From Halarcobacter bivalviorum (GTDB lineage: Bacteria > Campylobacterota > Campylobacteria > Campylobacterales > Arcobacteraceae), in the NCBI RefSeq assembly GCF_003346815.1, contig NZ_CP031217.1, positions 1,860,001 to 1,924,000 on the forward strand: a stretch of 64,000 nt of DNA, in the 5' to 3' direction. The position numbers and the translations under genes were made by a program. This document shows, one piece after another, positions 4,553 through 58,807 of the stretch (positions within the stretch are counted from its first letter, which is position 1; each line of letters begins with the position of its first letter). The notes below the pieces were generated by a model. That model was not told the DNA's origin and did no database searches. It saw nothing but the letters and a program-made list of their open reading frames with translations.

Positions 4553-5001
4553 AAAAAAATATATTTAAAATCTTATCAATTTTCTTTATAGCACTATTAT
4601 TTAGTGCCTGTGAGAAAAAAACACCAACTGAATATGCAGAAATTCATTGGGATAGAGATACTTGTGAAAGATGTAAAATGATTTTAAGTGATAGAAAACA
4701 TACAGTACAAGTTAAAAATCAAGAAGATAATAAAATATATAAGTTTGATGATATAGGTTGTGCTATTTTATGGTTTAAAGAAAATAAAATCTCATGGAAA
4801 GATAAAGCAAAAATTTGGATTACAGATGTAAAAACTTCAAAATGGATAGATGCTAGAAGTGCTTTTTACGATACTGTACATAAAACACCAATGGCTTATG
4901 GTTTTTCTGCAAATGAAAAAAAAGAATCAATCACAGAAAAGAATTCTGAAATAATTGATTTTAAAGAAGTAGAAAAAAGAGTATTAGAAAAAGGAAGATA
5001 A
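4549..5001 (+). CDS. nosL: NosL, copper-chaperone lipoprotein
   Basis: The 150-residue product has a lipoprotein signal (lipobox LFSAC, then EKK). The diagnostic metal site near residue 40 reads CERCKM, where most NosL proteins have CxxCGM, so the Gly is replaced by Lys. A NosL/MerB-like alpha-beta core follows, including the YKFDDIGC and AYGFSA regions. NosL binds Cu(I) and delivers it for NosZ assembly. The gene sits between nosF and nosY, with a 4-base overlap upstream and a 1-base overlap (TAATG) downstream. Confidence 0.9.
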   Translation: MKKNIFKILSIFFIALLFSACEKKTPTEYAEIHWDRDTCERCKMILSDRKHTVQVKNQEDNKIYKFDDIGCAILWFKENKISWKDKAKIWITDVKTSKWIDARSAFYDTVHKTPMAYGFSANEKKESITEKNSEIIDFKEVEKRVLEKGR

Positions 5002-5828
5002 TGAAAAATCTATTTTTAATAGCCTATTTAGATTTAAAAGAATCAATTAGAACAAAATGGTTCATTGTCTACTCTTTAGTTTTTGGAGGGATGATTGCTC
5101 TATTTTTTATAGCAGGTGTAACTCAATCACAAGTTATGGGTTTTAGTGGATTAAGTAGGCTTTTACTTATGTATATTCAAATTACAATTGTGATTTTGCC
5201 TATTTTTATACTAATTACTACAGTTCGTTCTATTTCAGGAGATAGAGATACTCATATTTTAGAGTATATGCTCTCTTTCCCTATCTCTTTAAAACAATAT
5301 TATTGGGGGAAAATATTAGGAAGATTTACTACAGTATTTTTACCAGTATTTTTAGCAATGTTATTTGCCTTATTTTATGGCATGATAATAAGTACAACTA
5401 TTCCTTGGGATATTTTCTTTTTATACACAGCTTTATTATTTGCATTAACTTCTGCTTTTTTAGGAATTGCTTTTTTTATCTCCTCTTTTGTAAAAACAAG
5501 TGAAGTAGCTTTGGGAGTCTCTTTTTTTATTTGGATATTCTTATTAGCTTTTATAGATATTGCTCTTATTTCACTTATGATGCAAAATAGGTTTGAAGAA
5601 GGATTTATTATTACAATAGCCCTTCTAAATCCAATGGAGATATTTAGAGTGGCAGCTATATCTTTATTTGACCCCGAACTAACAGTTATGGGGCCTGTTG
5701 CTTTTTATATTTTAGATACATTTAAACAGACAACTTTTGTTCTTTTTTCTGTTTTTTATCCTATCTTATTAGGATTTATATTTGCTATCTTTGGATATAA
5801 AATATTTGCTAAAAAAGATTTAATTTAA
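5001..5828 (+). CDS. nosY: NosY, ABC-2 type permease for NosZ maturation
   Basis: This 275-residue membrane protein has six predicted hydrophobic helices and the ABC-2 permease layout. A short cytoplasmic N-terminus (KESIRTKWF) comes first, and the conserved loop containing GDRDTHILEYMLSFPIS follows the second helix. With NosF it forms the exporter that supplies a still debated sulfur species or other component to NosD/NosZ. Its start overlaps the nosL stop by 1 base. The next gene follows after 12 bases, so the operon continues. Confidence 0.92.
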   Translation: MKNLFLIAYLDLKESIRTKWFIVYSLVFGGMIALFFIAGVTQSQVMGFSGLSRLLLMYIQITIVILPIFILITTVRSISGDRDTHILEYMLSFPISLKQYYWGKILGRFTTVFLPVFLAMLFALFYGMIISTTIPWDIFFLYTALLFALTSAFLGIAFFISSFVKTSEVALGVSFFIWIFLLAFIDIALISLMMQNRFEEGFIITIALLNPMEIFRVAAISLFDPELTVMGPVAFYILDTFKQTTFVLFSVFYPILLGFIFAIFGYKIFAKKDLI

Positions 5829-45755: not shown

Positions 45756-45785
45756 AAAGCAAGAGTTTAAATACTCTTACTTTTT
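45754..45785. terminator. Bidirectional terminator between ABC permease and P-type ATPase genes
   Basis: AAAAAGCAAGAGT and ACTCTTACTTTTT form a 13-base stem with one mismatch around a TTAAAT loop. The ABC permease stop is just before it, and the minus-strand ATPase stop falls in the loop. Confidence 0.75.
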
Positions 45786-47887
45786 ACTTTTACCCCTTTT
45801 ATAGAGTTTAATAATAAGCCAATAGTTGTACCATTATGTAGTACTGCTGTTTGTATTGGAGAAAATAGTCCAAAGGTAGCTCCTGCTAAAATAGCAGAGT
45901 TTATTCCTACTGTTGCATTAAAATTATTGTTGATTAATTTCATTGTATCATTTGCCAGCTCTTTAGCCTCTACAACTGCCGCAATATCATCTTTTAATAA
46001 ACTTACATCTGCTGTTGCTTTTGCAATATCAGCTCCCCTACTCATAGAGATACCCACATGAGCAGAAATAAGTGCGGGAGCATCATTGATTCCATCACCT
46101 ACAAAGGCTACTTTTTTACCTTCATCCATAAGCTCTTTTACAATTTTTGCTTTATCAGTTGGTAAAAGCTCTGCTCTTACCTCATCAATATCTAATTCTT
46201 CAGCAATCATTGAAGCTTTTTTCTTGGTGTCTCCTGTTAACATAACAATATTTTTAACACCTAGCTCTCTTAATCTCTTAATTGAAGCTTTTGCATTTTT
46301 TCTTAAGTTGTCAGCTAAAGAGATTGTGCCTAAAAGTTTTCCATCAAAACCTATATAAAGAAGTGTTTTCCCATTGTCTAAAGACTTTTGAATTCTTGTT
46401 TTTGCATTTCCAAAATCAATCTTTTCATCATCTTCTAAGAAGTGTCTACTTCCAATTACAACTTGTTTTCCTTCAACCTCTGTTTTTACCCCATGAGCTA
46501 CAATAAACTCAACCTCTTCATGGTGCATATGAACAAAGCCCTTCTCTTTTGCTGCTTTTACAACTGCTTCAGCAACAGGATGGAAATAGTGCTCTTCTGT
46601 TGAAGCTGTAAGATTTAATAAATCTTCTTCACTCCACTGCTCATCATATGACTCTACAGAGATAACTTCAAGTTCCCCTTCTGTCAGAGTTCCTGTTTTA
46701 TCAAAAACAAAAGTATCAGCACTACTTAAAGATTCAATAGATTTTGCACCTTTAATCATAATACCATTATGCCCTGCTTTTGAAATTGTTGTTTTAAAAG
46801 CAACTGGGGTTGCAAGCTTTAAAGCACAAGAGTAATCAGCTTGTAAGATAGAAGCCATTCTTTCAAAATCTTTCGTTAAAAGATATGAAGTTCCAGCAAG
46901 TCCTAAGGTTACAGGCACTAACTTATCAGCTAGTTTTGTAGCTTTTAATTGTACTGAAGATTTTTCATTTAAAGAGTTTTCTATGTAGTGTTTAATTCTT
47001 TGTGTTGCAGTATCAGCACCCACGTATTCAGCCCAAATTCTTAATCTTCCATCTTCTACAATAGTACCAGAGATAACTCTATCTCCTCTTTGTTTCATAA
47101 TAGGTTCAGCTTCTCCTGTCATTGAAACTTCATTTACACTTGCACTTCCATCTAAGATATGTCCATCTACAGGTACAGTATTTCCTACACCTACAATTAC
47201 AACATCACCTGTTTTAATCTCACTACTTTTAACTAAAACCTCTGTAACTTTACCCTTAACAATCTTTTCAATCCAAGCCTCTTCAACATTTGGCTTAGCA
47301 AGCTCTTTTAATAAATCATCACTTTTATGTACAGTTGTTTCTTCTATATACTCTCCTAACTCTAACATTGCATTTGTAGAGTTAGCAGCTAAATAATCTT
47401 TTCTATATAAAGAGATACCAACTGCTGCACTTTCTAATACTTTAGAAGTAAGCCCTTCTTCAAAAAGTTCTTTGCTTCCTTCAAGTAATAAAGGAGCTGC
47501 AGCAAAAGAAGAGATTGAAGCTTTAAGAAAATCATTTTTAGTAAGCCTTTCTGCAAGTAATGCAGAACTAGCTCTTATAATTCCTTTTAAACTTGGGTCT
47601 TCCTCACTAATACAAGAGACGCATACAGCCTCATTTTTACAAGACTCTAATAAATCCTCTAAAGTTAAAGTTACTAATCTCTTCTCTACTTCTTTTATAG
47701 TAGCTTCATCTTCAAAATTTATAATAACACTTTTAGCTGTTTTATTAACTCTTACAGCTTCTACACCCTTTAGTTTTTCTAAATCCTTTTTTAAAATATT
47801 CTCATCTAAATATTGATTATCTAAAAGTGAATATTTATATCTAATTCTATTTTTAGTTTGGTGTACTATTTTAAATTGATTATTCAT
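45767..47887 (-). CDS. P1B-type ATPase with SCA motif (P1B-6-like, FezB-like)
   Basis: A 706-residue metal-pumping P-type ATPase. The first 75 residues form an HMA-like fold with no CxxC metal site but a TKNRIRYKY segment; a CVSC pair follows at 89-92. The actuator TGE is at 257-259, the catalytic DKTGT at 396-400, an HP-type motif in HYFHPVAEAVV, and VGDGINDAPAL further on. The transmembrane site, usually CPC, reads DYSCALKLATP (353-355 SCA). From memory SCA marks the P1B-6 subgroup, whose FezB members load iron into ferrosomes. Weak ribosome site; it starts 2 bases after the preceding gene's stop, last in a six-gene operon. Confidence 0.85.
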   Translation of the reverse strand: MNNQFKIVHQTKNRIRYKYSLLDNQYLDENILKKDLEKLKGVEAVRVNKTAKSVIINFEDEATIKEVEKRLVTLTLEDLLESCKNEAVCVSCISEEDPSLKGIIRASSALLAERLTKNDFLKASISSFAAAPLLLEGSKELFEEGLTSKVLESAAVGISLYRKDYLAANSTNAMLELGEYIEETTVHKSDDLLKELAKPNVEEAWIEKIVKGKVTEVLVKSSEIKTGDVVIVGVGNTVPVDGHILDGSASVNEVSMTGEAEPIMKQRGDRVISGTIVEDGRLRIWAEYVGADTATQRIKHYIENSLNEKSSVQLKATKLADKLVPVTLGLAGTSYLLTKDFERMASILQADYSCALKLATPVAFKTTISKAGHNGIMIKGAKSIESLSSADTFVFDKTGTLTEGELEVISVESYDEQWSEEDLLNLTASTEEHYFHPVAEAVVKAAKEKGFVHMHHEEVEFIVAHGVKTEVEGKQVVIGSRHFLEDDEKIDFGNAKTRIQKSLDNGKTLLYIGFDGKLLGTISLADNLRKNAKASIKRLRELGVKNIVMLTGDTKKKASMIAEELDIDEVRAELLPTDKAKIVKELMDEGKKVAFVGDGINDAPALISAHVGISMSRGADIAKATADVSLLKDDIAAVVEAKELANDTMKLINNNFNATVGINSAILAGATFGLFSPIQTAVLHNGTTIGLLLNSIKGVKVKSKSI

Positions 47888-47889
47888 AA

Positions 47890-48279
47890 CTATTGATTTT
47901 GATTTGCTTCCATTTGAGCTTTTGCATCTTCATATCTCTCTTTTAACTCTTCCATTCCTGCTTGAAAAAGTTCACTTCCTTTTGAAGCTGCTTTCATAAT
48001 AGTCTCTTGAGCCCCTTTATTTGTTAAAAGAAAAGTTACTGCTGCACCAATTAAAGCACCCTTTACAAAATCAGAGTTATTAAATAAACCTTGATTTTGA
48101 GTAGCAGGAGCCCCAAACTGTTGATTAGGTTGAGGATTGATATATGGATTTTGATTTATATTCATTGAAGGAGTTGCTCCAACTCTTGTATTATCTATAT
48201 TTAAATCATACATATTTTGTTGATTTGGATTCATTCCCATTTGATTCATATTCATATTTTGATTATTGTTTTGATTCAT
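47890..48279 (-). CDS. Asn/Gln-rich small protein with a YtxH-like hydrophobic segment
   Basis: A 129-residue protein. The first 60 residues are almost entirely Asn, Gln, Met and Pro (low-complexity, prion-like). A hydrophobic, glycine-containing segment follows (FVKGALIGAAVTFLLTN, about residues 73-89), then an amphipathic helix ending KERYEDAKAQMEANQ. The second half recalls YtxH-type proteins. In this operon it may line or bind the membrane of an iron-storage body, but that is inference. ATG after GCAGGAGTAATTTT. I know no exact homologue. Confidence 0.7.
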   Translation of the reverse strand: MNQNNNQNMNMNQMGMNPNQQNMYDLNIDNTRVGATPSMNINQNPYINPQPNQQFGAPATQNQGLFNNSDFVKGALIGAAVTFLLTNKGAQETIMKAASKGSELFQAGMEELKERYEDAKAQMEANQNQ

Positions 48280-48283
48280 AAAA

Positions 48284-48643
48284 TTACTCCTGCTCTACTA
48301 AGTTAGTCTCTTCACAAACTAACTCATTGCATTGATTATTTAACTTGTCATCTAAAACTTCAAGGGCATAAATACCAGCCATTCCAACTGAAATAGTTGT
48401 TAAAGCTTTAAATAAACCACCTTTTTGTGTTAAATAGTTAGCTGTAGCTACTGCTGCTCCTGTTGCAATTGCACCTTGAGAAGTTCTTTTTAAAGTATCT
48501 CTTAAAGCCTCTTGTGTAGAGATTTCTTCATTTTTTACTTTTCTCATATTTATAGTTCCAGAAGCTACGGCAGAAGCTACGGCTCCTGTAATAACACTTC
48601 TTAAAATTGGATTTGCTGGATTATTTATAAGAGGTTGATTCAT
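48284..48643 (-). CDS. Small glycine-zipper-like membrane protein of the ATPase operon
   Basis: A 119-residue protein with two hydrophobic, small-residue-rich segments: SVITGAVASAVASGTINM and SQGAIATGAAVATANYL, with a third in LTTISVGMAGIYALEVL. Gly/Ala spacing every four residues suggests helix packing in a membrane. The C-terminus has two Cys (NQCNELVCEET) that might bind metal. The start follows GGAAGAAAAATAG and overlaps the region of the previous stop. Such small hydrophobic proteins accompany P1B-6 ATPases in ferrosome clusters. Confidence 0.7.
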   Translation of the reverse strand: MNQPLINNPANPILRSVITGAVASAVASGTINMRKVKNEEISTQEALRDTLKRTSQGAIATGAAVATANYLTQKGGLFKALTTISVGMAGIYALEVLDDKLNNQCNELVCEETNLVEQE

Positions 48644-48898
48644 CTATTTTTCTTCCTTTTTTTCTGACTCTTTTGCTAATTTCTGTTGCTCTTTTTTTTC
48701 TTTAATGCAAGCTGCTGTTGCATTGATTGTATCTTTTACATCTTCAACTTTCTCTTTTCCTTTTTCTAAAGATGAATTTGCTACATCTTTTGATTTAGAA
48801 AATAAAGATACTGCTTTCTCTTTTATCTTATCTGATTTACTAAAAGCAATAACTGCACCTGCTCCTACTGCTAATCCTAATACAAATGGTAAAGCCAT
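48644..48898 (-). CDS. YtxH-like small anchored protein
   Basis: An 84-residue protein: an N-terminal membrane helix (ALPFVLGLAVGAGAVIAFS) followed by a Lys/Glu-rich amphipathic helix typical of YtxH or apolipophorin-like tails (KIKEKAVSLFSKSKDVANSSLE). It could coat a membrane or body surface. It lies immediately before the stop-adjacent start of the glycine-zipper-like gene and after the ferritin-like gene. ATG after AAGGAGTAAGTC. Confidence 0.72.
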   Translation of the reverse strand: MALPFVLGLAVGAGAVIAFSKSDKIKEKAVSLFSKSKDVANSSLEKGKEKVEDVKDTINATAACIKEKKEQQKLAKESEKKEEK

Positions 48899-48901
48899 GA
48901 C

Positions 48902-49579
48902 TTACTCCTTATTTTGTTTATTCATATAGTCATTTAAAAACGCAACCGCTGCTGCACCTAATGCTGCACCTGAAACCATTGAGATATTTAACTTTGAAAA
49001 TAACTTTGTAAGTTTTGTTTCATCCATATTTCCATTTAACATATCTTCTAAAATCATCTGATATTCGCCAATTTTATTCATAACTTGTTCTTGATTAAAA
49101 CCTTGAACATCATTTGCTACACTATAATGGTTTAAAATACAATTTCTAAAAGCAGGAAGATGATTATTATATGAGTGTGCTTGTAGTTGATAAAAAACAT
49201 CTCTAATATCAGCTTCTTGAACATGTTGTAAAAGATTATCATACATAGCTATATTTTGTATCTCACTTGCTACACCTAGTTCGCATGCTTCTATAAAACT
49301 ATTTGGTGCTTCAATTTTTAAGTGCCAATCATTAACTGGTACTTCCACATTATACTTTTGTAATAAAGAGATTAAAGCTGAATAGTGTCTAGCTTCAGAC
49401 TCTTTTATATGAACAAAAGGTTGAACTAACCCAAACTTTTCAATAATTCTTACATAAGCTTCATAGGCTTTACATTCATCATAAATTGCAATTCTAAGAG
49501 CTTGAGAAACTATTGGTTGAGGATCATTCACATCAATCCGTTGGCTAATTAATAAAGCCTCATCTAAATTTACTGGCAA
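48902..49579 (-). CDS. Ferritin-like (DUF2202-type) protein of the ATPase operon
   Basis: A 225-residue helical protein. Metal-ligand-like residues recur at ferritin spacing: AIYDECKAYEAYVRII, HIKESEARHYSALISLL (ExxxH), ASEIQNIAMYDNLL and LQAHSYNNHLPAFRNC. That pattern is the DUF2202 / ferritin-like fold. The C-terminus (LNISMVSGAALGAAAVAFL) is hydrophobic and could anchor it to a membrane. The start is a TTG directly after the upstream stop, supported by a near-ideal ribosome site AAAGGAGG 8 bases before it. Iron oxidation or storage is likely; anchoring in the ATPase-bearing membrane is inference. Confidence 0.78.
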   Translation of the reverse strand: MPVNLDEALLISQRIDVNDPQPIVSQALRIAIYDECKAYEAYVRIIEKFGLVQPFVHIKESEARHYSALISLLQKYNVEVPVNDWHLKIEAPNSFIEACELGVASEIQNIAMYDNLLQHVQEADIRDVFYQLQAHSYNNHLPAFRNCILNHYSVANDVQGFNQEQVMNKIGEYQMILEDMLNGNMDETKLTKLFSKLNISMVSGAALGAAAVAFLNDYMNKQNKE

Positions 49580-49894
49580 CTACACAACCTCCTTTGCTAG
49601 ATTATTTATTAACTCTGTTATTTCATCTAAATTTCTATTGGCAATTAAATCTTCCCAAAGAGCTGGAGAAAAAACTGTTGGATCATAAGTAATAGTTACT
49701 GAAGCTATTATTTTTTTTATAGTAATACTATTTATTCCATTTATTTTATTTGGAAGATTTTCAATATCTTCTAAAGTGATATTTCCACTTTCACTTTTAA
49801 TCTTTGGATTAACTCTTACTCTTAGTCTTCCAGGAGTATGAGCTATTACTGTAAAATAACTTGCTATTTTAATAATATCTTCTGTACTTATCAT
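49580..49894 (-). CDS. HMA-like protein heading the putative iron-storage operon
   Basis: The ATG at 49894 follows AAAAAGGAAATTG. The 104-residue protein has the beta-alpha-beta-beta-alpha-beta pattern of heavy-metal-associated domains but no CxxC. Instead it has AHTPGRLRVRVN, close in form to TKNRIRYKY in the N-terminus of the operon's ATPase (T-x-x-R-x-R). Such HMA-like proteins with Arg-rich first strands occur with P1B-6 ATPases. It is the first gene of the operon, downstream of a Fur-box-like promoter element. Confidence 0.75.
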   Translation of the reverse strand: MISTEDIIKIASYFTVIAHTPGRLRVRVNPKIKSESGNITLEDIENLPNKINGINSITIKKIIASVTITYDPTVFSPALWEDLIANRNLDEITELINNLAKEVV

Positions 49895-49940
49895 CAATTT
49901 CCTTTTTATAATTATTCTATCTTAAACTTAATGCTAACTT

Positions 49941-49946
49941 ATTATA
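49941..49946 (-). promoter_or_regulatory. Promoter -10 box of the ferritin-like / ATPase operon
   Basis: TATAAT on the minus strand, about 47 bases before the ATG at 49894. The Fur-like element at 49948-49966 lies immediately upstream and would cover the -35/spacer region. Confidence 0.5.
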
Positions 49947-49947
49947 A

Positions 49948-49966
49948 ACTTATAATCACTATCAAT
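49948..49966 (-). promoter_or_regulatory. Fur-box-like element before the ferritin-like / ATPase operon
   Basis: ATTGATAGTGATTATAAGT on the minus strand is a 9-1-9 inverted repeat with three mismatches and keeps the GATA...TTAT core of Fur sites. Weaker than those at 52465 and 53008, but ideally placed to repress the promoter. Confidence 0.45.
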
Positions 49967-49980
49967 AAATGTTATTTTTT

Positions 49981-51825
49981 TTAATAAAAAACAACCCTAT
50001 TCCTTCCATTTTTTTTAGCTTCATATAAAGCTTCATCGGCTCTTTTATAAATTATTTCAAACTCTTCATCATAAATACAAACCGTACATCCCATAGAAAT
50101 AGTTATATAAATTTTATGTTCATCTACAAGGAAAAGTTTGGCTTCAACCACTTTTCTTATTCTATTTGCTATTTTAATTATATTTAAACTTGAAGTATCA
50201 TCTATCAAAAGTAAGAACTCTTCTCCACCAAATCTTCCTAAAATATCATTTTTAGAGATTTCAGAAGAGATAAGTTTTGATAACTCTTTTAAAATTACAT
50301 CTCCCACATAATGTCCATAAGTATCATTGATTTTTTTAAAGTAATCAATATCAAAAATTATCATAGAGAAGTCTTTATTCTCTAACCATCTTTTTGCATA
50401 ATTTGTTATTGTAGCTTTATTATAAACACTTGTAAGCTCATCTGTTGTTGCTCTAAAAGTTAGATGATTAATTTTATGATTTAAAGTAGAAACATCATTC
50501 ATACAAATTAAATATTTTCTAATATCTAATTTAGAAACATGAAAAGTAAAGTATCTTTCTTCATCAGTAAATTTAAATTTTGCAGGAATATCTTTATTGT
50601 TATATCGTTTTGCAACAGCAATAAAATTTGCTTTTGTTTTATTATCAATTAGGGCAATATTTTCTAAAAAGTTTTCTGTACTATTAAAAATTTCATGGAA
50701 TTTTCTATTTACACTTTGAATCTCTTTTCCATCTGTAATCATAATAATATTTTGTTGAGTATCTAAAACAGACTGTAAAAAATCTCTCTCTTTTTTTAAT
50801 GTTAAATCTTGCTGAGCATTTATAACACGAAACATCTCATTTATTTTTCTTACTAAATATGAAATTTCATCATCATAACTAACTTTCAACTTATATTTTA
50901 AAGTCTCATTTAAAGAGACTTTTTTTACTACACTGGTAATATAATTTATTCTATTTACAAAAAGTTTATTCATAAAAATAAAGAAGATAATCATTGTTAT
51001 TAAAAACATAGCTAAAAAAAGAGATAAAATATACTTTAATTCAATAATCATATTATTGTAAACTTCTCGTTTATTTTGGAATCTAATATAAAAATTCTCT
51101 TTTTCAAATAAATCATAAAACTCTAAATAATAAAATAGATTCTCTTCACTATTTTTTTTAATACTATAACTTATCTCTTCATTTTCATATTTTAATTTTT
51201 GAATATCTTTTAAACCATAATTTGTAACTAAACTTGCATAATCCTCTATTACTTCACTCACTTTTGTTAAAAAAGTAGAGTTAATAGCTCTTGCAGTAAA
51301 AATATAACCTTCTATCTCATTATTAACTATAATCTTTTCAACACTAAATAGTATCTTTTCAAAATTTAAAGTTAGATATTTGTTTTTAGAATCTAGTTTA
51401 CTTAAATCACTCTTTTTTAGATATGTAAAAAGCTCTTTAGAAGCATATAGTTCCTCATCTGAAGTTAGATCATAATATTTAGAAAATAAAGGATTTTTAT
51501 CTTTATCCAAAAGAATAAAATAAGTTAAATTGAGTTTCTTCATAAAATCTGGTTTATTATTAAAAAAGCTATTTAGTTTCTCCTTATCTCTATTTTTTAC
51601 AATATCAATAATATGGCTATGAGTAGAGTATTCATAACTAATATTCTTAATCTTTTCATAATAGTTATTAAGAATATTTTGAACTTTTTTTATATTATTT
51701 ATAATAATTTTCTCTTCTATATTTTCAATATTTACTATTCTATTTTTTACAATTATTGAAATGAATAAAAAAGAAAGTATAAAAATCAAAACAAAAAGAA
51801 GAGAAACTTTTTTATTAATATTCAT
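49981..51825 (-). CDS. Membrane sensor PAS-diguanylate cyclase
   Basis: A 614-residue protein: TM1 (about 8-26), a periplasmic Cache-like domain to about 255, TM2 (about 265-288), a HAMP-like linker, a PAS domain (about 345-440, ITDGKEIQSVNRKFHEIF) and a GGDEF domain. IFDIDYFKKINDTYGHYVGD and the loop RFGGEEF are intact; the RxxD site is replaced by SKND, so product inhibition is probably lost. It lies 6 bases after fur on the same strand, which suggests co-transcription with the iron regulator. Confidence 0.9.
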   Translation of the reverse strand: MNINKKVSLLFVLIFILSFLFISIIVKNRIVNIENIEEKIIINNIKKVQNILNNYYEKIKNISYEYSTHSHIIDIVKNRDKEKLNSFFNNKPDFMKKLNLTYFILLDKDKNPLFSKYYDLTSDEELYASKELFTYLKKSDLSKLDSKNKYLTLNFEKILFSVEKIIVNNEIEGYIFTARAINSTFLTKVSEVIEDYASLVTNYGLKDIQKLKYENEEISYSIKKNSEENLFYYLEFYDLFEKENFYIRFQNKREVYNNMIIELKYILSLFLAMFLITMIIFFIFMNKLFVNRINYITSVVKKVSLNETLKYKLKVSYDDEISYLVRKINEMFRVINAQQDLTLKKERDFLQSVLDTQQNIIMITDGKEIQSVNRKFHEIFNSTENFLENIALIDNKTKANFIAVAKRYNNKDIPAKFKFTDEERYFTFHVSKLDIRKYLICMNDVSTLNHKINHLTFRATTDELTSVYNKATITNYAKRWLENKDFSMIIFDIDYFKKINDTYGHYVGDVILKELSKLISSEISKNDILGRFGGEEFLLLIDDTSSLNIIKIANRIRKVVEAKLFLVDEHKIYITISMGCTVCIYDEEFEIIYKRADEALYEAKKNGRNRVVFY

Positions 51826-51831
51826 TTTAAT

Positions 51832-52281
51832 TTATTGACAATCTTCACATAAACCATAAATAATCATTGCATGATCTTTTAAGATAAAATTATTTTCTTT
51901 TGCAATATCTTCTTGTTTTTCTTCAATTACTTCATCTGTAAATTCAATTATTTTATGACAAGAAGTGCAAACTAAATGGTCATGATGTTCAGCAATTTTA
52001 AGCTCATATCTTTTTACACTGTCTCCAACATCTAAACTATCAATTAAATTTAAATCTTCAAAAAACTTTACAGTTCTATATACTGTAGCAATACCAACAT
52101 CAATGTTGTACTCAACTTTTACTTTATGTGCAATCTGTTCTGCAGTTAAGTGTTCATCACAATAGAAAAGAATCTTTAAAATATAATCTTTTTGAATTGA
52201 GTTTTTAAACCCTAACTTAGAAACATGCAGTTTAAAGTTTTTTAAAAATGTTTCAAAAGTTATTCCATGCTTTTTATTCAT
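51832..52281 (-). CDS. fur: Fur, ferric uptake regulator
   Basis: A 149-residue Fur protein: winged helix (SIQKDYILKILFYCDEHLTAEQI, then VGIATVYRTVKFFEDLNLI), the regulatory metal site HHDHLVCTSCHK, and C-terminal CEDCQ for the structural zinc pairs. It represses iron-uptake genes when loaded with Fe2+. It is divergent from an unknown 129-residue gene, and the 268 bases between them contain three Fur-box-like elements. The ATG follows AAAAGGGTAAGA. Confidence 0.92.
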   Translation of the reverse strand: MNKKHGITFETFLKNFKLHVSKLGFKNSIQKDYILKILFYCDEHLTAEQIAHKVKVEYNIDVGIATVYRTVKFFEDLNLIDSLDVGDSVKRYELKIAEHHDHLVCTSCHKIIEFTDEVIEEKQEDIAKENNFILKDHAMIIYGLCEDCQ

Positions 52282-52961: not shown

Positions 52962-53007
52962 ATTAAGTATTGATTAAGTGTATTTTTTTTAAAATCATTT
53001 CAAATTA

Positions 53008-53026
53008 TTTGATAACGACTATCATT
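53008..53026. promoter_or_regulatory. Fur box 2 of the imelysin operon
   Basis: TTTGATAACGACTATCATT lies 22-40 bases upstream of the ATG at 53048 and overlaps a TATCAT -10 candidate (53020-53025). The pair of boxes spaced 65 bases apart suggests strong iron repression. Confidence 0.6.
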
Positions 53027-53047
53027 TTAACAATCAAAAGGAAAATT

Positions 53048-54388
53048 ATGAATAAAACAAAACTATTAACAGCAAGTATTAGTTTTGCAGCTGCATTAGC
53101 TTTTGCTGGTTGTGCCGCTTCAAATACAGATGCTAAAACTCATTCTCATATGCAAATGAAAAAAGTAGATATCCTAAGTGCTTATGCAAAAATTGCAAAT
53201 GAAAATTATACAGATGCTTTAAATGATGCAAAAGCTTTACAGAGTGCTATTAATGACTTTGCTAAAAACCCTACAGAAGAGACTTTACAAGAAGCAAAAA
53301 ATGCTTGGTTAAAATCAAGAGAATCTTATGGACAAACTGAAATTTTCAGATTATCAAATGGTCCAATTGATGCAGAAGAAGGTTGGGTATCTGAAAAATA
53401 TGGTGCTTTAGAAGGACAATTAAATGCTTGGCCTTTAGATGAAAATATGATTGACTATACAATTGATGCAAATGGGAAAAGAACTGCTGGGAATATTATT
53501 GATACAACTGGAGAATTTAATCCAGGTGGAGAAGATTCAAAAGCTGTAGATGTAACTACTATCACTATTGATGCGTTAACTGATTTAAATGAAAATGGTG
53601 GAGAAGCTAATGTTTCTACTGGATACCATGCCGTTGAATTTATCTTATGGGGACAAGACCAAGATTACTCAAACTTTGTAAAAGATGCAATAACAAATGG
53701 TGCTAAAACTGCGGGACAAAGACCACTTTCTGATTTTACATCTGATGTTAATTCTCAAAGAAGATTAGCATATTTAAAAGCTGCATCTGAAAAAATTGTT
53801 GCAGATTTAGAAGTAGTTGCAAGTGCTTGGTCTAAAGATGGTTTATATCAAGCTGCTTTCCAAGGAAAACTAAGCGGTGAAAATAGTTCTAAAAACCTAT
53901 CAAGAGAAGAAGCTTTAAAACAAGTTATTGCAGGAATGGGTGTATTTATTAAATCAGAACTTGCAAATGAAAGAATCGCAGTTGCTGTTTTAACTCCATC
54001 AGAAGAGGATGAACACTCTTGCTTCTCTGATAATACACATAGAGATATAGTAACAAATTATCAAGGTTTTAAAAATATTTTAACTTCAACATATAATGGT
54101 AAGTCTTATGGACTTTCACTATTAGATAAAGTATCAACAGAAGATAAAGCAAGAATTGAAAAATTAATGGCTTCAATCGAAGAAAAAATTGCTTTAGTTG
54201 ATAAAACTGCAAAAACAAAAGAGCACTTTGATTATCAAATTCAACCAGATAATCCAATGGCAAAAGTTATTGTAAAACTTAAAAATGAGATGAGAAAACT
54301 TGGTGATGAAATGGTAACTGTTGCAAAAGCAAATGGAATCTCTTTAAGTACAGATGATGTTACAGATCCAGAAGAAACAAAAATCTAA
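53048..54388 (+). CDS. IrpA-type imelysin lipoprotein (peptidase M75 family)
   Basis: The start at 53048 follows AAAAGGAAAATT; the longer frame from 52970 runs through a Fur box. The 446-residue product has a lipobox (LAFAGC) and an imelysin domain with two-helix repeats. The family's GxHxxE motif is intact (STGYHAVEFILWG). RPLSDF and SDNTHRDIVTNYQGFKNIL are features of iron-regulated protein A. Imelysin proteins bind iron or haem at the cell surface; peptidase activity is doubted. It leads an operon with a dihaem DUF1111 protein and others. Confidence 0.85.
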   Translation: MNKTKLLTASISFAAALAFAGCAASNTDAKTHSHMQMKKVDILSAYAKIANENYTDALNDAKALQSAINDFAKNPTEETLQEAKNAWLKSRESYGQTEIFRLSNGPIDAEEGWVSEKYGALEGQLNAWPLDENMIDYTIDANGKRTAGNIIDTTGEFNPGGEDSKAVDVTTITIDALTDLNENGGEANVSTGYHAVEFILWGQDQDYSNFVKDAITNGAKTAGQRPLSDFTSDVNSQRRLAYLKAASEKIVADLEVVASAWSKDGLYQAAFQGKLSGENSSKNLSREEALKQVIAGMGVFIKSELANERIAVAVLTPSEEDEHSCFSDNTHRDIVTNYQGFKNILTSTYNGKSYGLSLLDKVSTEDKARIEKLMASIEEKIALVDKTAKTKEHFDYQIQPDNPMAKVIVKLKNEMRKLGDEMVTVAKANGISLSTDDVTDPEETKI

Positions 54389-55757
54389 GTTCAAATCAAG
54401 CTATAAAACCCTTATAAATAAAAGCCTCGTAGCATTTTTTGCTACTGGGCTTTTTGCAGTTTTAGCTAATGGCTCTGAAATAACAGAAAAAAGAGACAAA
54501 ACTACTTTATTAAAGCCTGTAAAAAATCTTAGTGATGAAGAGTATGACAAGTTTATATTAGGAAGAAGTTTTTTTAAAATTCCTTGGGTTGAAGCTCCAA
54601 GTGCAACGACAGCAAGGGATGGATTAGGACCACTTTTTAATGCAAACACCTGTAATAGTTGTCATCCAAATAATGGTAGAGGTAATCTTTTTAATGAAGA
54701 GGGAAAACTATCAAGAGCAGTTATTGCTAAACTTTCACTTCCTTCAAAAGGTTTAAAAGAACAGTTAGAGTTTTTAGAAAAAAATGCTTTACTTCCAGAG
54801 CCTACTTATGGAGGACAAATAGCAATAAATGGTATTCATGATGTAAAATATGAAGCTAAACCTGAAATAAAATTTGAAGAGATAAAAGTTAAATTTCCAG
54901 ATGGAGAAGTTGATACTATTTTAAAACCTACTTATGTATTAAATGATTTACAGTATGGAGAACTTCATAAAGATACAATTATTACTTTTAGAATTGCACC
55001 TTCATTAAATGGTTTAGGGCTTTTAGAAGATATTTCAGAAGAAGACATTTTAGCAAATGTTGATGAATTTGATAAAAACAAAGATGGTATTTCTGGACGA
55101 GCAAATTTTGCTTATTCTCCCCTTACAAAGAAAAAAGAGTTAGGAAAATACTCTTGGAAAGCTAATAATACCTCAATTATTCATCAAACAGCTGATGCTG
55201 CTATAAATGATATGGGTTTAACAACAACTATCTTTAATGAAGATAGATGTACCGAAAAACAAAAAGCTTGTAAAGAAGCACCAAAAGCAAGAGATAAGAT
55301 AGATCTTCCTGATTTTAGACTTCAAGCAATTGAGTTTTATATTAAAAAAAGAGAGACTTTTAGTACTAAAAAAGATAAAGATTATAAAGAGGGATTAGCC
55401 CTATTTAAAGAGATTTCTTGTGCAAAATGTCATATGGATTCTTTTACTACAAAAAGTGGTATTGAGATTTCACCTTTTACAGACTTACTTCTACATGATA
55501 TGGGAGAAGGTTTAGCTGATGGAAGAAGTGAATTTATAGCAAATGGACAAGAGTGGAGAACTGCACCTTTATGGGGATTATCTCTCCATGACAAAATAAA
55601 TACAGAAAAACCAAGATTATTACATGATGGAAGAGCTAGAGATTTCCAAGAGGCAATACTTTGGCATGGTGGTGAAGCAAAAGCTTCAAAAGAGGCTTTT
55701 ATGAATTTACCAAAAGAGAAAAGAGAACAATTATTAAAATTTTTAGAGAGGTTATAG
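54354..55757 (+). CDS. DUF1111 di-haem oxidoreductase-like protein
   Basis: A 467-residue exported protein. The first ATG lies 35 bases inside the preceding gene; its hydrophobic signal (LVAFFATGLFAVLANGSE) sits about 30 residues in, and no later start codon precedes it. Two haem motifs, CNSCH (near residue 100) and CAKCH (near 360), mark the DUF1111/'dihaem thiol oxidoreductase' family distantly related to MauG and CcpA. In the Fur-regulated irpA-DUF1111-imelysin gene set this protein probably changes the iron redox state or handles periplasmic electrons. The next imelysin gene begins 1 base after its stop. Confidence 0.82.
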   Translation: MMLQIQKKQKSKFKSSYKTLINKSLVAFFATGLFAVLANGSEITEKRDKTTLLKPVKNLSDEEYDKFILGRSFFKIPWVEAPSATTARDGLGPLFNANTCNSCHPNNGRGNLFNEEGKLSRAVIAKLSLPSKGLKEQLEFLEKNALLPEPTYGGQIAINGIHDVKYEAKPEIKFEEIKVKFPDGEVDTILKPTYVLNDLQYGELHKDTIITFRIAPSLNGLGLLEDISEEDILANVDEFDKNKDGISGRANFAYSPLTKKKELGKYSWKANNTSIIHQTADAAINDMGLTTTIFNEDRCTEKQKACKEAPKARDKIDLPDFRLQAIEFYIKKRETFSTKKDKDYKEGLALFKEISCAKCHMDSFTTKSGIEISPFTDLLLHDMGEGLADGRSEFIANGQEWRTAPLWGLSLHDKINTEKPRLLHDGRARDFQEAILWHGGEAKASKEAFMNLPKEKREQLLKFLERL

Positions 55758-55758
55758 G

Positions 55759-56745
55759 ATGAAATTATTTAAGATAATTTTTACACTTGTATGTTTAATT
55801 ACTCTATCAAATGCAGCCATTGATAAAAAAAATGAGAGAGTATTAAATACAATTTATGAAAATGTGATTTTAAAAGATTCACAAAAAGCAGTTGAAGATG
55901 CAACAAAATTACAAGAAGCTATTTTTCAACAAAACATTGAACTAAGTAAAAAAAGTTTTCAAGAGTTAATTGTATCTTGGAAAAGTATTCAATCTTTATA
56001 TATCTTAGGAGATTTAAATGAAGAGTATATTGATACACCTAGATTAATTGATATATATCATCATGGAAATGAAGATATAAAAGCACAACTGGATAGAGCT
56101 TTATTAAGCAAAGATGAGCCAAAAATTGCTCTGTTTAAAAACTCACTTAAATCAATAAATGCCTTAGAATATCTTTTATATGCTAAAGATTTAAAAGATG
56201 AAAGAGTTAAAGACTTTGCATTAACAATCACTAAAAAAATCACTTCTCACTTAGAAGATATTAATACTGAATATAAAAAACAACATAAAAACTTTTTATC
56301 TGATTTAAAAAAAGCAAATGGAGTTTTAATCAATAAACTTATTCAAAATACTTACAAACTAAAAGAGTGGAGAATTGGAGATGTTGTAGGATTAAGTAAA
56401 AAATATAAAGATAGTTTTGATAATAAAAGAGCTGAATATGCTCTTAGTAAAAACTCCTCTTTAGCAATTGGTGCAATTTTAAATACTTATAAAAATGTTT
56501 TTGATAACAAAGCCTATTACGATTATGGAAACTACTTAGAAGACTTAACTCATAACAAACAAGTTAATGTTTTAAGAGAGTCTATTTCAAAAGCTATCTC
56601 TTTAAATAAACAAATCAAAAATGATAATTTTAAAGAGGCAAAAAAGCTTTATGATGAAGCAAACACTATTCATGTAGTTCTATTTTTAGATTTGATTGAA
56701 GAGTTATCAATCAATGCAAAAATCATTGATGCAGATGGGGATTAA
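55759..56745 (+). CDS. Second imelysin-family periplasmic protein
   Basis: A 328-residue exported protein with a plain signal (MKLFKIIFTLVCLITLSNA). It is helical and shows imelysin-type pairing: the N-terminal half (AVEDATKLQEAIFQQ, then SWKSIQSLYILG) aligns in style with the IrpA product. The position of the GxHxxE motif reads SINALEYLLYA, so the His and Gly are missing while Glu is kept. This suggests a structural or altered-ligand partner of the first imelysin. It lies between the DUF1111 and membrane hydroxylase genes. Confidence 0.75.
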   Translation: MKLFKIIFTLVCLITLSNAAIDKKNERVLNTIYENVILKDSQKAVEDATKLQEAIFQQNIELSKKSFQELIVSWKSIQSLYILGDLNEEYIDTPRLIDIYHHGNEDIKAQLDRALLSKDEPKIALFKNSLKSINALEYLLYAKDLKDERVKDFALTITKKITSHLEDINTEYKKQHKNFLSDLKKANGVLINKLIQNTYKLKEWRIGDVVGLSKKYKDSFDNKRAEYALSKNSSLAIGAILNTYKNVFDNKAYYDYGNYLEDLTHNKQVNVLRESISKAISLNKQIKNDNFKEAKKLYDEANTIHVVLFLDLIEELSINAKIIDADGD

Positions 56746-56747
56746 AC

Positions 56748-57650
56748 TTGAATTCTCCTTTACTCTTTGAGTACTTAATAAACCCAGATAAAAGAACTTT
56801 CTGGGTTTATATTATCTCATCAATTGCTATTGGAATAATCTATTTATACTTTAATAAAAAATATAAAAGAGTAAATTTCTCTAAAACTCTTTGGCTACAC
56901 CCTAGTGCAAAGCTAGATTATTACTACTTTATTCTTTCATATTTTATTAAGACATTAATGATTTTTCCAATAGTAATTAGTGCAAATAGTGTTGCTTTAT
57001 ATATAAGAAAGGTTCTATATTTAGAGTTTGGTTTTAATCATATAAACTCAATCTCTTATGAAGTTGTTATTATTTTTTATACAGTTACACTTTTTGTTGT
57101 AAGTGATTTTACTAGATATTGGTTACATAGATTCCTTCATACAATTCCTTTTCTTTGGGAGTTTCACAAGATACATCATAGTGCAAAAGTTTTAAACCCT
57201 TTAACTTTTTATAGAGTTCATCCCATTGAAAATATTCTTTTTGGATTTAGATACTCATTAAGTATTGGTTTTACAACAGGTATCTTTTTATACTTTTTTG
57301 GCTCAAAAATTGGAGTTTATGAAGTAGTTGGAGCAAATATCTTTGTCTTTATTTTCTCATTATTAGGTTCAAATTTAAGACATTCTCATATTCCTCTTAA
57401 CTACTTTAGTTTTTTAGAGAAATGGTTTATCTCTCCAAAACAACATCAAATTCACCATAGTAAAAAGTTTTTTGATAAAAATTATGGTGGATATTTAGCC
57501 ATTTGGGATAGAGTTTTTGGAACACTAAAACTCTCAAATGAAGTTCAGGTTTTAAAATTTGGGCTAAGAAAAGAGCAAATGAAAGAGTATAACTCACTTA
57601 AAAACTTATTACTACTACCATTTATAAATATTTTAAGAAGGAGAAGTTAA
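56748..57650 (+). CDS. Fatty-acid hydroxylase / sterol desaturase family membrane protein
   Basis: The start is a TTG at 56748, 2 bases after the preceding stop, behind GATGGGG. The 300-residue protein has four or five membrane helices and the full diiron histidine set: HRFLH, HKIHHS, RHSH and HQIHHS. GGYLAIWDRVFGTL is the usual C-terminal signature. Family members hydroxylate or desaturate lipids using a non-haem diiron centre. Its place inside a Fur-controlled haem/imelysin operon is unusual; the substrate is unknown. Confidence 0.85.
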   Translation: MNSPLLFEYLINPDKRTFWVYIISSIAIGIIYLYFNKKYKRVNFSKTLWLHPSAKLDYYYFILSYFIKTLMIFPIVISANSVALYIRKVLYLEFGFNHINSISYEVVIIFYTVTLFVVSDFTRYWLHRFLHTIPFLWEFHKIHHSAKVLNPLTFYRVHPIENILFGFRYSLSIGFTTGIFLYFFGSKIGVYEVVGANIFVFIFSLLGSNLRHSHIPLNYFSFLEKWFISPKQHQIHHSKKFFDKNYGGYLAIWDRVFGTLKLSNEVQVLKFGLRKEQMKEYNSLKNLLLLPFINILRRRS

Positions 57651-58807
57651 TGAAATATTTAAATTTAGTTACTTTGGTAACTACTGCTTTAGTTTTTACT
57701 GCGTGTACAAACTCTACATTATCAAAAGAAGAGATTTTAAAGCAGACAAAGCAAAAAGAACAATTAGGGAAGGTTCTATTTTTTGATAAAAACCTTTCAA
57801 AAAATAGAACTCAAGCTTGTGCCACATGTCATAATCCAGATGCTGGTTTTGCAGATGACAGAGACAATGGAATTAAGAGTATGGCTTCACTAGGAGATGA
57901 TGGGAAATCTTTAGGTGATAGACAAGCTCCAAGTGCAGCTTATGCTATGTTTAGTCCAAAATTTCACTATGATAAAAAAAATGATAAATATATTGGTGGA
58001 CAATTTTGGGATGGAAGAGAAGATACTTTAGCCGGTCAAGCTGGAGGACCTCCCACAAATCCTATTGAAATGGGAATGCCTTCAAAAGAAGCTGTTGTTG
58101 AAAGATTAAAAGAGAACTCATATTATATTGAGACTTTTAAAACTATTTATGGAGAAGATATTTTCTCTTCAAATGAGAAAGCCTATAGTGCAATGACAGA
58201 TTCAATAGAAAAATTTGAACAAACAAAAGAGTTTGCTCCTTTTGATTCAAAATATGATAGATATTTAAGAGGAGAGTATGATTTAACACCTTTAGAGGAT
58301 TTAGGAAGATCACTATTTTTCTCAAATGCAAATAACTCTTGTGCAAATTGCCACCTTAGCAAAAAAGAGGATTCAGAAGGTGAAACATTTACAAATTTTG
58401 AATACCATAATATAGGAACACCAATTAACCATGAACTAAGAGCAGTAAATGGGGTAAAAGAGATTGATAAAGGTTTATTAGCAAATCCAAAAGTTATCGA
58501 TGAAAAACATTTAGGAAAATATAAAGTTCCAACTTTAAGAAATGTAGCAGTTACAGGTCCATATATGCACAATGGAGTATTTAAGGATTTAAAAACTGTT
58601 GTGGAGTTTTATGATAAATATAATAATAAAGAAAGAACAATTAATCCAGAAACAAATAAACCTTGGGATGAACCAGAAGTAAAAGAGACTATCTCTTTAG
58701 AAGAGTTAAAAGCTAAAAAACAAAATGATAGAAAAGTAGAAGCTTTAGTTGCTTTTATGAAATTACTAACAGATAAAAGATATGAACACTTATTAGAAGA
58801 GGAATAA
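57650..58807 (+). CDS. Di-haem cytochrome c peroxidase / MauG-family lipoprotein
   Basis: The 385-residue protein has a lipobox (VFTAC) and two haem motifs, CATCH (near residue 62) and CANCH (near 235). LGKVLFFDKNLSKNRTQACATCHNPDAGFADDR, only in part quoted here by its key ends, matches the CcpA/MauG N-terminal domain, and the C-terminal VPTLRNVAVTGPYMHNG is the family signature. It either reduces H2O2 or oxidises a partner protein. Its ATG overlaps the previous stop (TAATG), and a hairpin follows the gene. Confidence 0.88.
   Translation: MKYLNLVTLVTTALVFTACTNSTLSKEEILKQTKQKEQLGKVLFFDKNLSKNRTQACATCHNPDAGFADDRDNGIKSMASLGDDGKSLGDRQAPSAAYAMFSPKFHYDKKNDKYIGGQFWDGREDTLAGQAGGPPTNPIEMGMPSKEAVVERLKENSYYIETFKTIYGEDIFSSNEKAYSAMTDSIEKFEQTKEFAPFDSKYDRYLRGEYDLTPLEDLGRSLFFSNANNSCANCHLSKKEDSEGETFTNFEYHNIGTPINHELRAVNGVKEIDKGLLANPKVIDEKHLGKYKVPTLRNVAVTGPYMHNGVFKDLKTVVEFYDKYNNKERTINPETNKPWDEPEVKETISLEELKAKKQNDRKVEALVAFMKLLTDKRYEHLLEEE

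Follow-up and report, generated by a model that had tools for sequence, protein, structure and literature searches.

A candidate ferrosome-type iron-storage operon with a ferritin-like protein and a MamC homologue in Halarcobacter bivalviorum

The question raised by this locus is whether a compact run of genes in Halarcobacter bivalviorum, comprising a P-type ATPase, a ferritin-like protein and several small membrane proteins, encodes a ferrosome-type iron-storage system. Ferrosomes are known from Desulfovibrio, Shewanella, Rhodopseudomonas and Clostridioides, and the precipitate that they contain is iron phosphate. The window, by which we mean the whole stretch of 64,000 nucleotides that was analysed (positions 1,860,001 to 1,924,000 of contig NZ_CP031217.1), belongs to a genome that is complete in a single contig of 2.68 Mb. 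An earlier note on this DNA had suggested a ferrosome-type system in this Arcobacter-group bacterium, and the suggestion gained support from the P1B-6 clade in which the ATPase falls, a Fur-like site, neighbouring fur and feo genes and a FezC/DUF4405-like partner. Based on these sequence features, we consider it likely that the operon specifies a ferrosome-type (Fez-like) iron-storage system. In the literature outside the primary ferrosome papers this variant is new in gene content, and two of its components, a tailed DUF2202 protein and a MamC homologue, are unreported for ferrosomes.

The pump and its operon

SCA is the motif that P1B-6 pumps carry in transmembrane helix 4 (TM4). As had been remarked before, the window ATPase has SCA in place of CPC, which was read in TM4 as DYSCALK, and its TM6 carries LHNG, hence an HN motif. 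The P1B-6 pumps are listed as the Fe(II) group in a review (PMC7558416), and HN in TM6 is a feature of this group, for which small transmembrane partners have also been described (PMC9374683). Among 124 P1B sequences, the top scorers to the window family were SCA pumps, most of which begin with an RxR HMA-like N-terminus and contain LHNG. A maximum-likelihood tree of 78 rows places the window ATPase inside a fully supported clade of pumps from Proteobacteria and Campylobacterota, which is adjoined by SCA pumps of Desulfovibrio, Clostridia and Treponema, and the CPC pumps stand apart, including three of the host's own genome, Staphylococcus CadA and a Moraxella copper pump. Whether the pump groups with exporters of Cu, Zn or Mn, the outcome that the earlier note had named as refuting its reading, was checked in this way, and the ATPase fell in the SCA/HN P1B-6 clade; it is thus a P1B-6 pump both by its motifs and by its placement. 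Assignment to the Cu/Zn/Cd exporters of the P1B-1/2 type, which have CPC in TM4 and would be placed with such pumps, was considered and rejected on motifs and tree.

The six open reading frames (ORFs) lie on the minus strand at 45767-49897 and are separated by 0 to 4 bases (Table 1). The small HMA_2-like protein, which probably starts at the ATG of its second codon, is kept in relatives. HMA_2 (PF19991) is matched by both HMA-like domains of the operon (6e-10 and 1e-6), and CxxC is found in neither; the match of the small protein (E 1.2e-6) has 29 bits, 1 bit under the curated cut-off of 30. The YtxH-like protein is present in every long operon type compared, with a match to PF12732 (E 0.005) that is below the cut-off, and some relatives' versions of the 84-residue protein also match YtxH weakly. 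DUF6110 and DUF1490 were sought in the 84-residue protein, and neither Pfam family was matched. The description that had been given of the locus, six tightly spaced minus-strand genes with an HMA-like protein lacking CxxC, a ferritin-like gene and three small hydrophobic or YtxH-like proteins, was borne out in each of these respects, and the operon thus has the co-encoded small membrane proteins and the HMA_2-like protein without CxxC that mark a ferrosome cluster.

The order HMA, ferritin-like, small transmembrane protein(s), MamC-like, YtxH-like and ATPase is kept in 23 fetched Campylobacterota loci, in some of which greedy ORF calls hid the 84-residue gene, and also in Thauera/Pseudothauera and on a plasmid of Arcobacter, a recurrence that chance does not explain. 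When named genomes were scanned with the SCA region of the alignment (80 loci, with layouts established by six-frame profile search), three arrangements could be distinguished. The complete set, ferritin-like protein included, occurs in Campylobacterota, Thauera/Pseudothauera and two gammaproteobacterial metagenome-assembled genomes. A set without it occurs in Azospirillum/Magnetospirillum and in Vibrio, Shewanella, Photobacterium and Kluyvera, and in the latter four a His/Met/Pro-rich YtxH-like protein of 220-300 residues replaces the ferritin-like one. The short layout, an ATPase with an HMA-like neighbour, was found in Desulfovibrio, Treponema and related loci. Within Campylobacterota, the pump is present in 66 of 200 sampled genomes.

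On the Arcobacter plasmid CP134847 (L064:8001-10114), the ATPase frame is split into two annotated genes of 100 and 570 residues; on the other listed plasmid, CP129951, the ATPase aligns in one piece. In five genomes, a second P1B ATPase of the CPC type, about 717-728 residues long and with an RxR-like N-terminus, is located directly upstream of the operon and forms a deep branch of its own in the tree.

The ferritin-like protein and the MamC homologue

The ferritin-like protein matches DUF2202 (PF09968) with 31.6 bits, above the gathering cut-off of 22. AlphaFold2 modelled residues ~23-156 confidently as a four-helix bundle and the tail poorly. The best solved structural match is the DUF2202 protein MJ0754 of Methanocaldococcus (3q4n, 3q4r), with a Z score of 15.3 and 2.5 Å over 143 residues; since the structure scores of other ferritins are only slightly lower, this assignment is carried by the sequence match (E 8e-12). 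The two proteins share the ferritin-like four-helix fold and their ligands align, whereas the operon protein has an additional C-terminal hydrophobic GxxxG tail (G204, G208) and sits in a P1B-6 operon. A literature search on DUF2202 yielded nothing relevant.

The predicted metal ligands, E35, E62xxH65, E106 and H140, are all intact in 34 of 55 sequences; another 16 of the 55, from Campylobacteraceae, have lost E62, H65 and H140. The tail motif G204xxxG208 is present throughout the aligned operon copies, including those of Campylobacteraceae without the metal ligands (L074 has no tail, and its aligned glycines are a coincidence). The protein was present in 32 of 60 related genomes. Among the 200 phylum-wide Campylobacterota genomes, 62 contain a tailed copy, and all 62 copies are located on the same strand as the P1B-6 gene, 812-1155 bp before it. 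Four P1B-6 pumps occur without the ferritin-like protein, and weak DUF2202-only matches never co-occur with the pump (Fisher p 2e-47 for the association of protein and pump, uncorrected for phylogeny). The complete linkage and the invariant tail show that the ferritin-like protein is a fixed core component of the Campylobacterota variant, and its description in the earlier note as an added part had to be abandoned. Judging by the ligands lost in Campylobacteraceae, the role shared by all copies is probably structural, as in a scaffold, with iron chemistry in a subset; this lineage separates the structural from the catalytic roles of the protein.

The 119-residue membrane protein belongs to a family of which 19 of 21 members match the NCBIfam MamC model NF038051 (best 2.5e-9, window protein 3.1e-5), the only recurrent match. 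Conversely, a profile built from Campylobacterota operons alone finds true Paramagnetospirillum MamC at 2e-7, with 52.8 bits against a maximum of 13.0 in 3000 composition-preserving shuffles, and reversed MamC was not among the top matches. HHalign against 12 true MamC sequences gave a probability of 97.5% over 91 columns, compared to at most 5.4% when the operon's other Gly/Ala-rich families were used, so that the profile similarity lies well above the composition controls. Judged by these comparisons, the two-TM protein is a true homologue of MamC, and because the window protein scores 24.2 bits against an equivalog cut-off of 100, it is a homologue and not MamC itself. Foldseek found no PDB structure that matched the MamC-like model at better than E 1, the small hydrophobic fold being uninformative, and a PDB sequence search gave no match. 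MamC (Mms13) is a magnetosome membrane protein, whereas the operon has no magnetosome genes at its locus and its hosts are not known as magnetotactic. Literature searches for MamC with ferrosomes, and for MamC outside magnetotactic bacteria, returned nothing relevant.

Iron regulation and the FezC-like protein

Upstream of most Campylobacterota operons, at -69 to -86, lies a Fur-box-like core, ATTGATAATGATT, and 18 of 28 operons score at least 11/13 for it. In 500 dinucleotide shuffles this score was reached by 0.87 operons on average and by 4 at most; the 13-mer core was picked after the first scan, yet is part of the canonical Fur box, and the relatives are not independent of one another. 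The operon is therefore probably iron-regulated, as far as this conserved site can predict, and the earlier observation that Fur-box-like DNA precedes the operon is backed by this conservation at the same distance in relatives. The fur gene reported nearby was also found (PF01475), separated from the operon by one CHASE4-GGDEF diguanylate cyclase gene (49981-51825, same strand). Neighbours of the operon in relatives include fur, feoAB, TonB receptors and FecR, with fur or feoAB often among them.

Most Campylobacterota operons end with a two-TM protein of 72-109 residues in which H39 and H53 are invariant, and several of these proteins have DUF4405 as their sole or best Pfam match. FezC is a ferrosome protein experimentally shown to bind heme b, and a DUF4405 match has been reported for it (PMC10979944). 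Like the FezC/DUF4405 cytochromes, the protein at the 3' end of the relatives' operons has two TM helices and invariant histidines, and it is probably a cytochrome b; it differs from FezC in that the Campylobacterota form lacks the HMA half. A FezC-like segment occurs as a fusion with an HMA_2 domain in L078 and L079. No FezC-like gene is present at the window locus, and the host copy is located elsewhere, at 1427709-1427939, divergent from feoA-feoB. A FezC-like protein is present in 15 of 16 genomes of the genus, and the exception (G009) is also without the ferritin-like gene.

In three relatives, the FezC-like two-TM protein continues into a C-terminal domain within the same ORF (L054:10569-11246, L057:10805-11470 and L096:10266-10913); this domain is SpoIIAA-like in L054 (PF11964, E 2e-20), and those of L057 and L096 are similar in sequence. 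The pairing with a CHASE4-GGDEF gene recurs in several relatives (L037, L042, L046 and L049). Beside fur, at 52970-58807, there is a periplasmic iron cluster of two imelysin (M75) genes, a di-haem oxidoreductase gene and a di-haem cytochrome c peroxidase-like gene; several relatives also have the first of these imelysin genes close to the operon.

Table 1. Coordinates of the operon, its neighbourhood and selected genes of related loci (positions in the window unless a locus is given)
Feature	Position	Strand	Remarks
HMA_2-like small protein, 105 aa	49580-49897	minus	GRLRVRV motif, no CxxC; first gene in transcription order
DUF2202 ferritin-like protein, 225 aa	48902-49579	minus	PF09968
84-aa one-TM protein	48644-48898	minus	N-terminal Gly/Ala-rich TM helix, then charged Lys/Glu-rich tail
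MamC-homologous two-TM membrane protein, 119 aa	48284-48643	minus	NCBIfam MamC NF038051
YtxH-like protein	47890-48279	minus	Asn/Gln-rich N-terminus, GxxxG-type TM helix, charged tail
P1B-6-type ATPase, 706 aa	45767-47887	minus	SCA in TM4, HN in TM6, N-terminal RxR HMA_2-like domain
Fur-box-like element ATTGATAGTGATT	49954-49966	minus	About 69 bases upstream of first operon gene
fur family regulator	51832-52281	minus	PF01475 3e-32; recurs beside operon in relatives
Upstream CPC-type ATPase in relatives	L052:4365-6551, L054:4083-6236, L056:4107-6260, L057:4330-6483, L096:3924-6122		
His/Met/Pro-rich protein with YtxH-like TM segment	L062:4670-5395		Counterparts in L065, L066, L070, L072

Iron storage weighed against efflux

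The fez clusters of the four genera with known ferrosomes have in common with the operon a P1B-6 ATPase with an R-rich HMA-like N-terminus, small TM proteins and an HMA_2-like protein, and probably also a FezC/DUF4405-like partner and a link to Fur. The FezC/DUF4405-like cytochrome is missing from some known ferrosome clusters. Related clusters are found in relatives of Shewanella and Desulfovibrio, and the SCA ATPases of these relatives belong to the same larger clade as the window ATPase. What distinguishes the operon is the addition of the DUF2202 ferritin-like protein with its GxxxG tail and of a MamC-type protein, and a FezC-like gene that has no HMA half and has moved beside feoAB in the host genome. 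Several points weigh against ferrosome-type storage. The link to proven ferrosomes goes by motif, clade members and gene content, with relatives from Shewanella and Desulfovibrio standing in for characterised Fez proteins, and Fe(II) is a predicted substrate of the pump. The DUF4405 matches are below the curated cut-off (E 0.004 for the host protein), and the Fur-box-like site of the window, with 13/19 against the full 19-mer (shuffle p 0.10), is not significant by itself. Finally, P1B-6-like pumps with small TM partners also build efflux platforms in the plasma membrane (CtpC/PacL1; PMC9374683).

The last point leads to the strongest rival explanation, which we regard as rather unlikely: a plasma-membrane Fe(II) efflux platform, in which surplus iron would be exported to the periplasm by the ATPase, clustered and stabilised by the small GxxxG proteins, with no organelle. 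Experimental precedent is provided by the Zn exporter CtpC of Mycobacterium, a P1B-6-like pump with an HN motif that is encoded in one operon with the small TM scaffold PacL1, a DUF1490 protein with a metal-binding tail, and DUF6110 partners of P1B-6 pumps have been proposed to play the same clustering role (PMC9374683). The 84-residue protein, with its TM helix followed by a charged tail, is also laid out similarly to PacL1. However, CtpC has CPC in TM4 where the window pump has SCA, the operon yields no DUF1490 or DUF6110 match, and PacL-type platforms contain less than the five or six partners of this operon, with its ferritin-like, MamC-homologous and cytochrome-like proteins. Efflux is further disfavoured because the Fur-box-like site predicts expression at low iron, which is the wrong time for it.

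A very improbable alternative is that the ferritin-like protein, as a membrane-tethered cage or EncB-like cargo, is itself the main iron store and the ATPase plays an accessory part. The ferritin-like fold with its diiron-type ligands and a weak match to the EncB encapsulin cargo family (NF058679) would fit this, but the latter reaches 22 bits against a cut-off of 90, by which an EncB-type cargo was ruled out, and the nearest known structure is MJ0754 and not a classical ferritin. Moreover, Campylobacteraceae retain protein and operon despite loss of the ExxH motif and the helix-4 His, operons of the Vibrio/Shewanella type do without the protein, and the host genome has other ferritin-family genes. 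Equally hard to credit is an exporter operon for Cu, Zn/Cd, Mn or Co. Generic NCBIfam models of the cadmium and copper P1B subfamilies do match the window ATPase, yet the SCA and HN motifs, the HMA domains without CxxC, the well-supported clade apart from CPC pumps, the iron-related neighbours and the Fur-like site all argue against it.

If the operon does encode ferrosome-type storage, falling iron would release it from Fur, as the conserved site predicts, and the HMA_2-like, 84-residue, MamC-homologous and YtxH-like proteins, together with the ferritin-like GxxxG tail, might gather in a patch of membrane from which a vesicle forms, as their TM and GxxxG patterns suggest. When iron returns, the P1B-6 ATPase would move Fe(II) from the cytosol to the lumen, where it would precipitate. 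The ferritin-like domain, presumably tethered by its tail to the cytosolic face, could bind or oxidise Fe(II) at its diiron site and so buffer iron at the pump or reduce peroxide damage, and the FezC/DUF4405-like membrane protein encoded beside feoAB would handle iron redox. If this is true, lipid-bounded iron storage reaches into a large group, some members of which are Campylobacter and Helicobacter species associated with humans.

The MamC link, furthermore, provides a concrete and testable evolutionary bridge from ferrosomes to magnetosomes. We put forward tentatively, as a joint proposal that we judge to fall a little short of probable, that ferrosomes and magnetosomes have a membrane module in common by inheritance, in that MamC either descended from a small protein of P1B-6 iron-vesicle operons or has a common ancestor with it, and that Campylobacterota possess a distinct ferrosome type with a tail-anchored ferritin-like core component that was first structural and secondarily catalytic. 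Paramagnetospirillum caucaseum (L095, L145) has a P1B-6 operon as well as a true MamC, and a single cell may thus contain the gene sets of both iron organelles. The operon of Halochromatium contains two tandem MamC-like genes (L075:4210-4479 and 4803-5105), with a central motif that closely resembles that of MamC.

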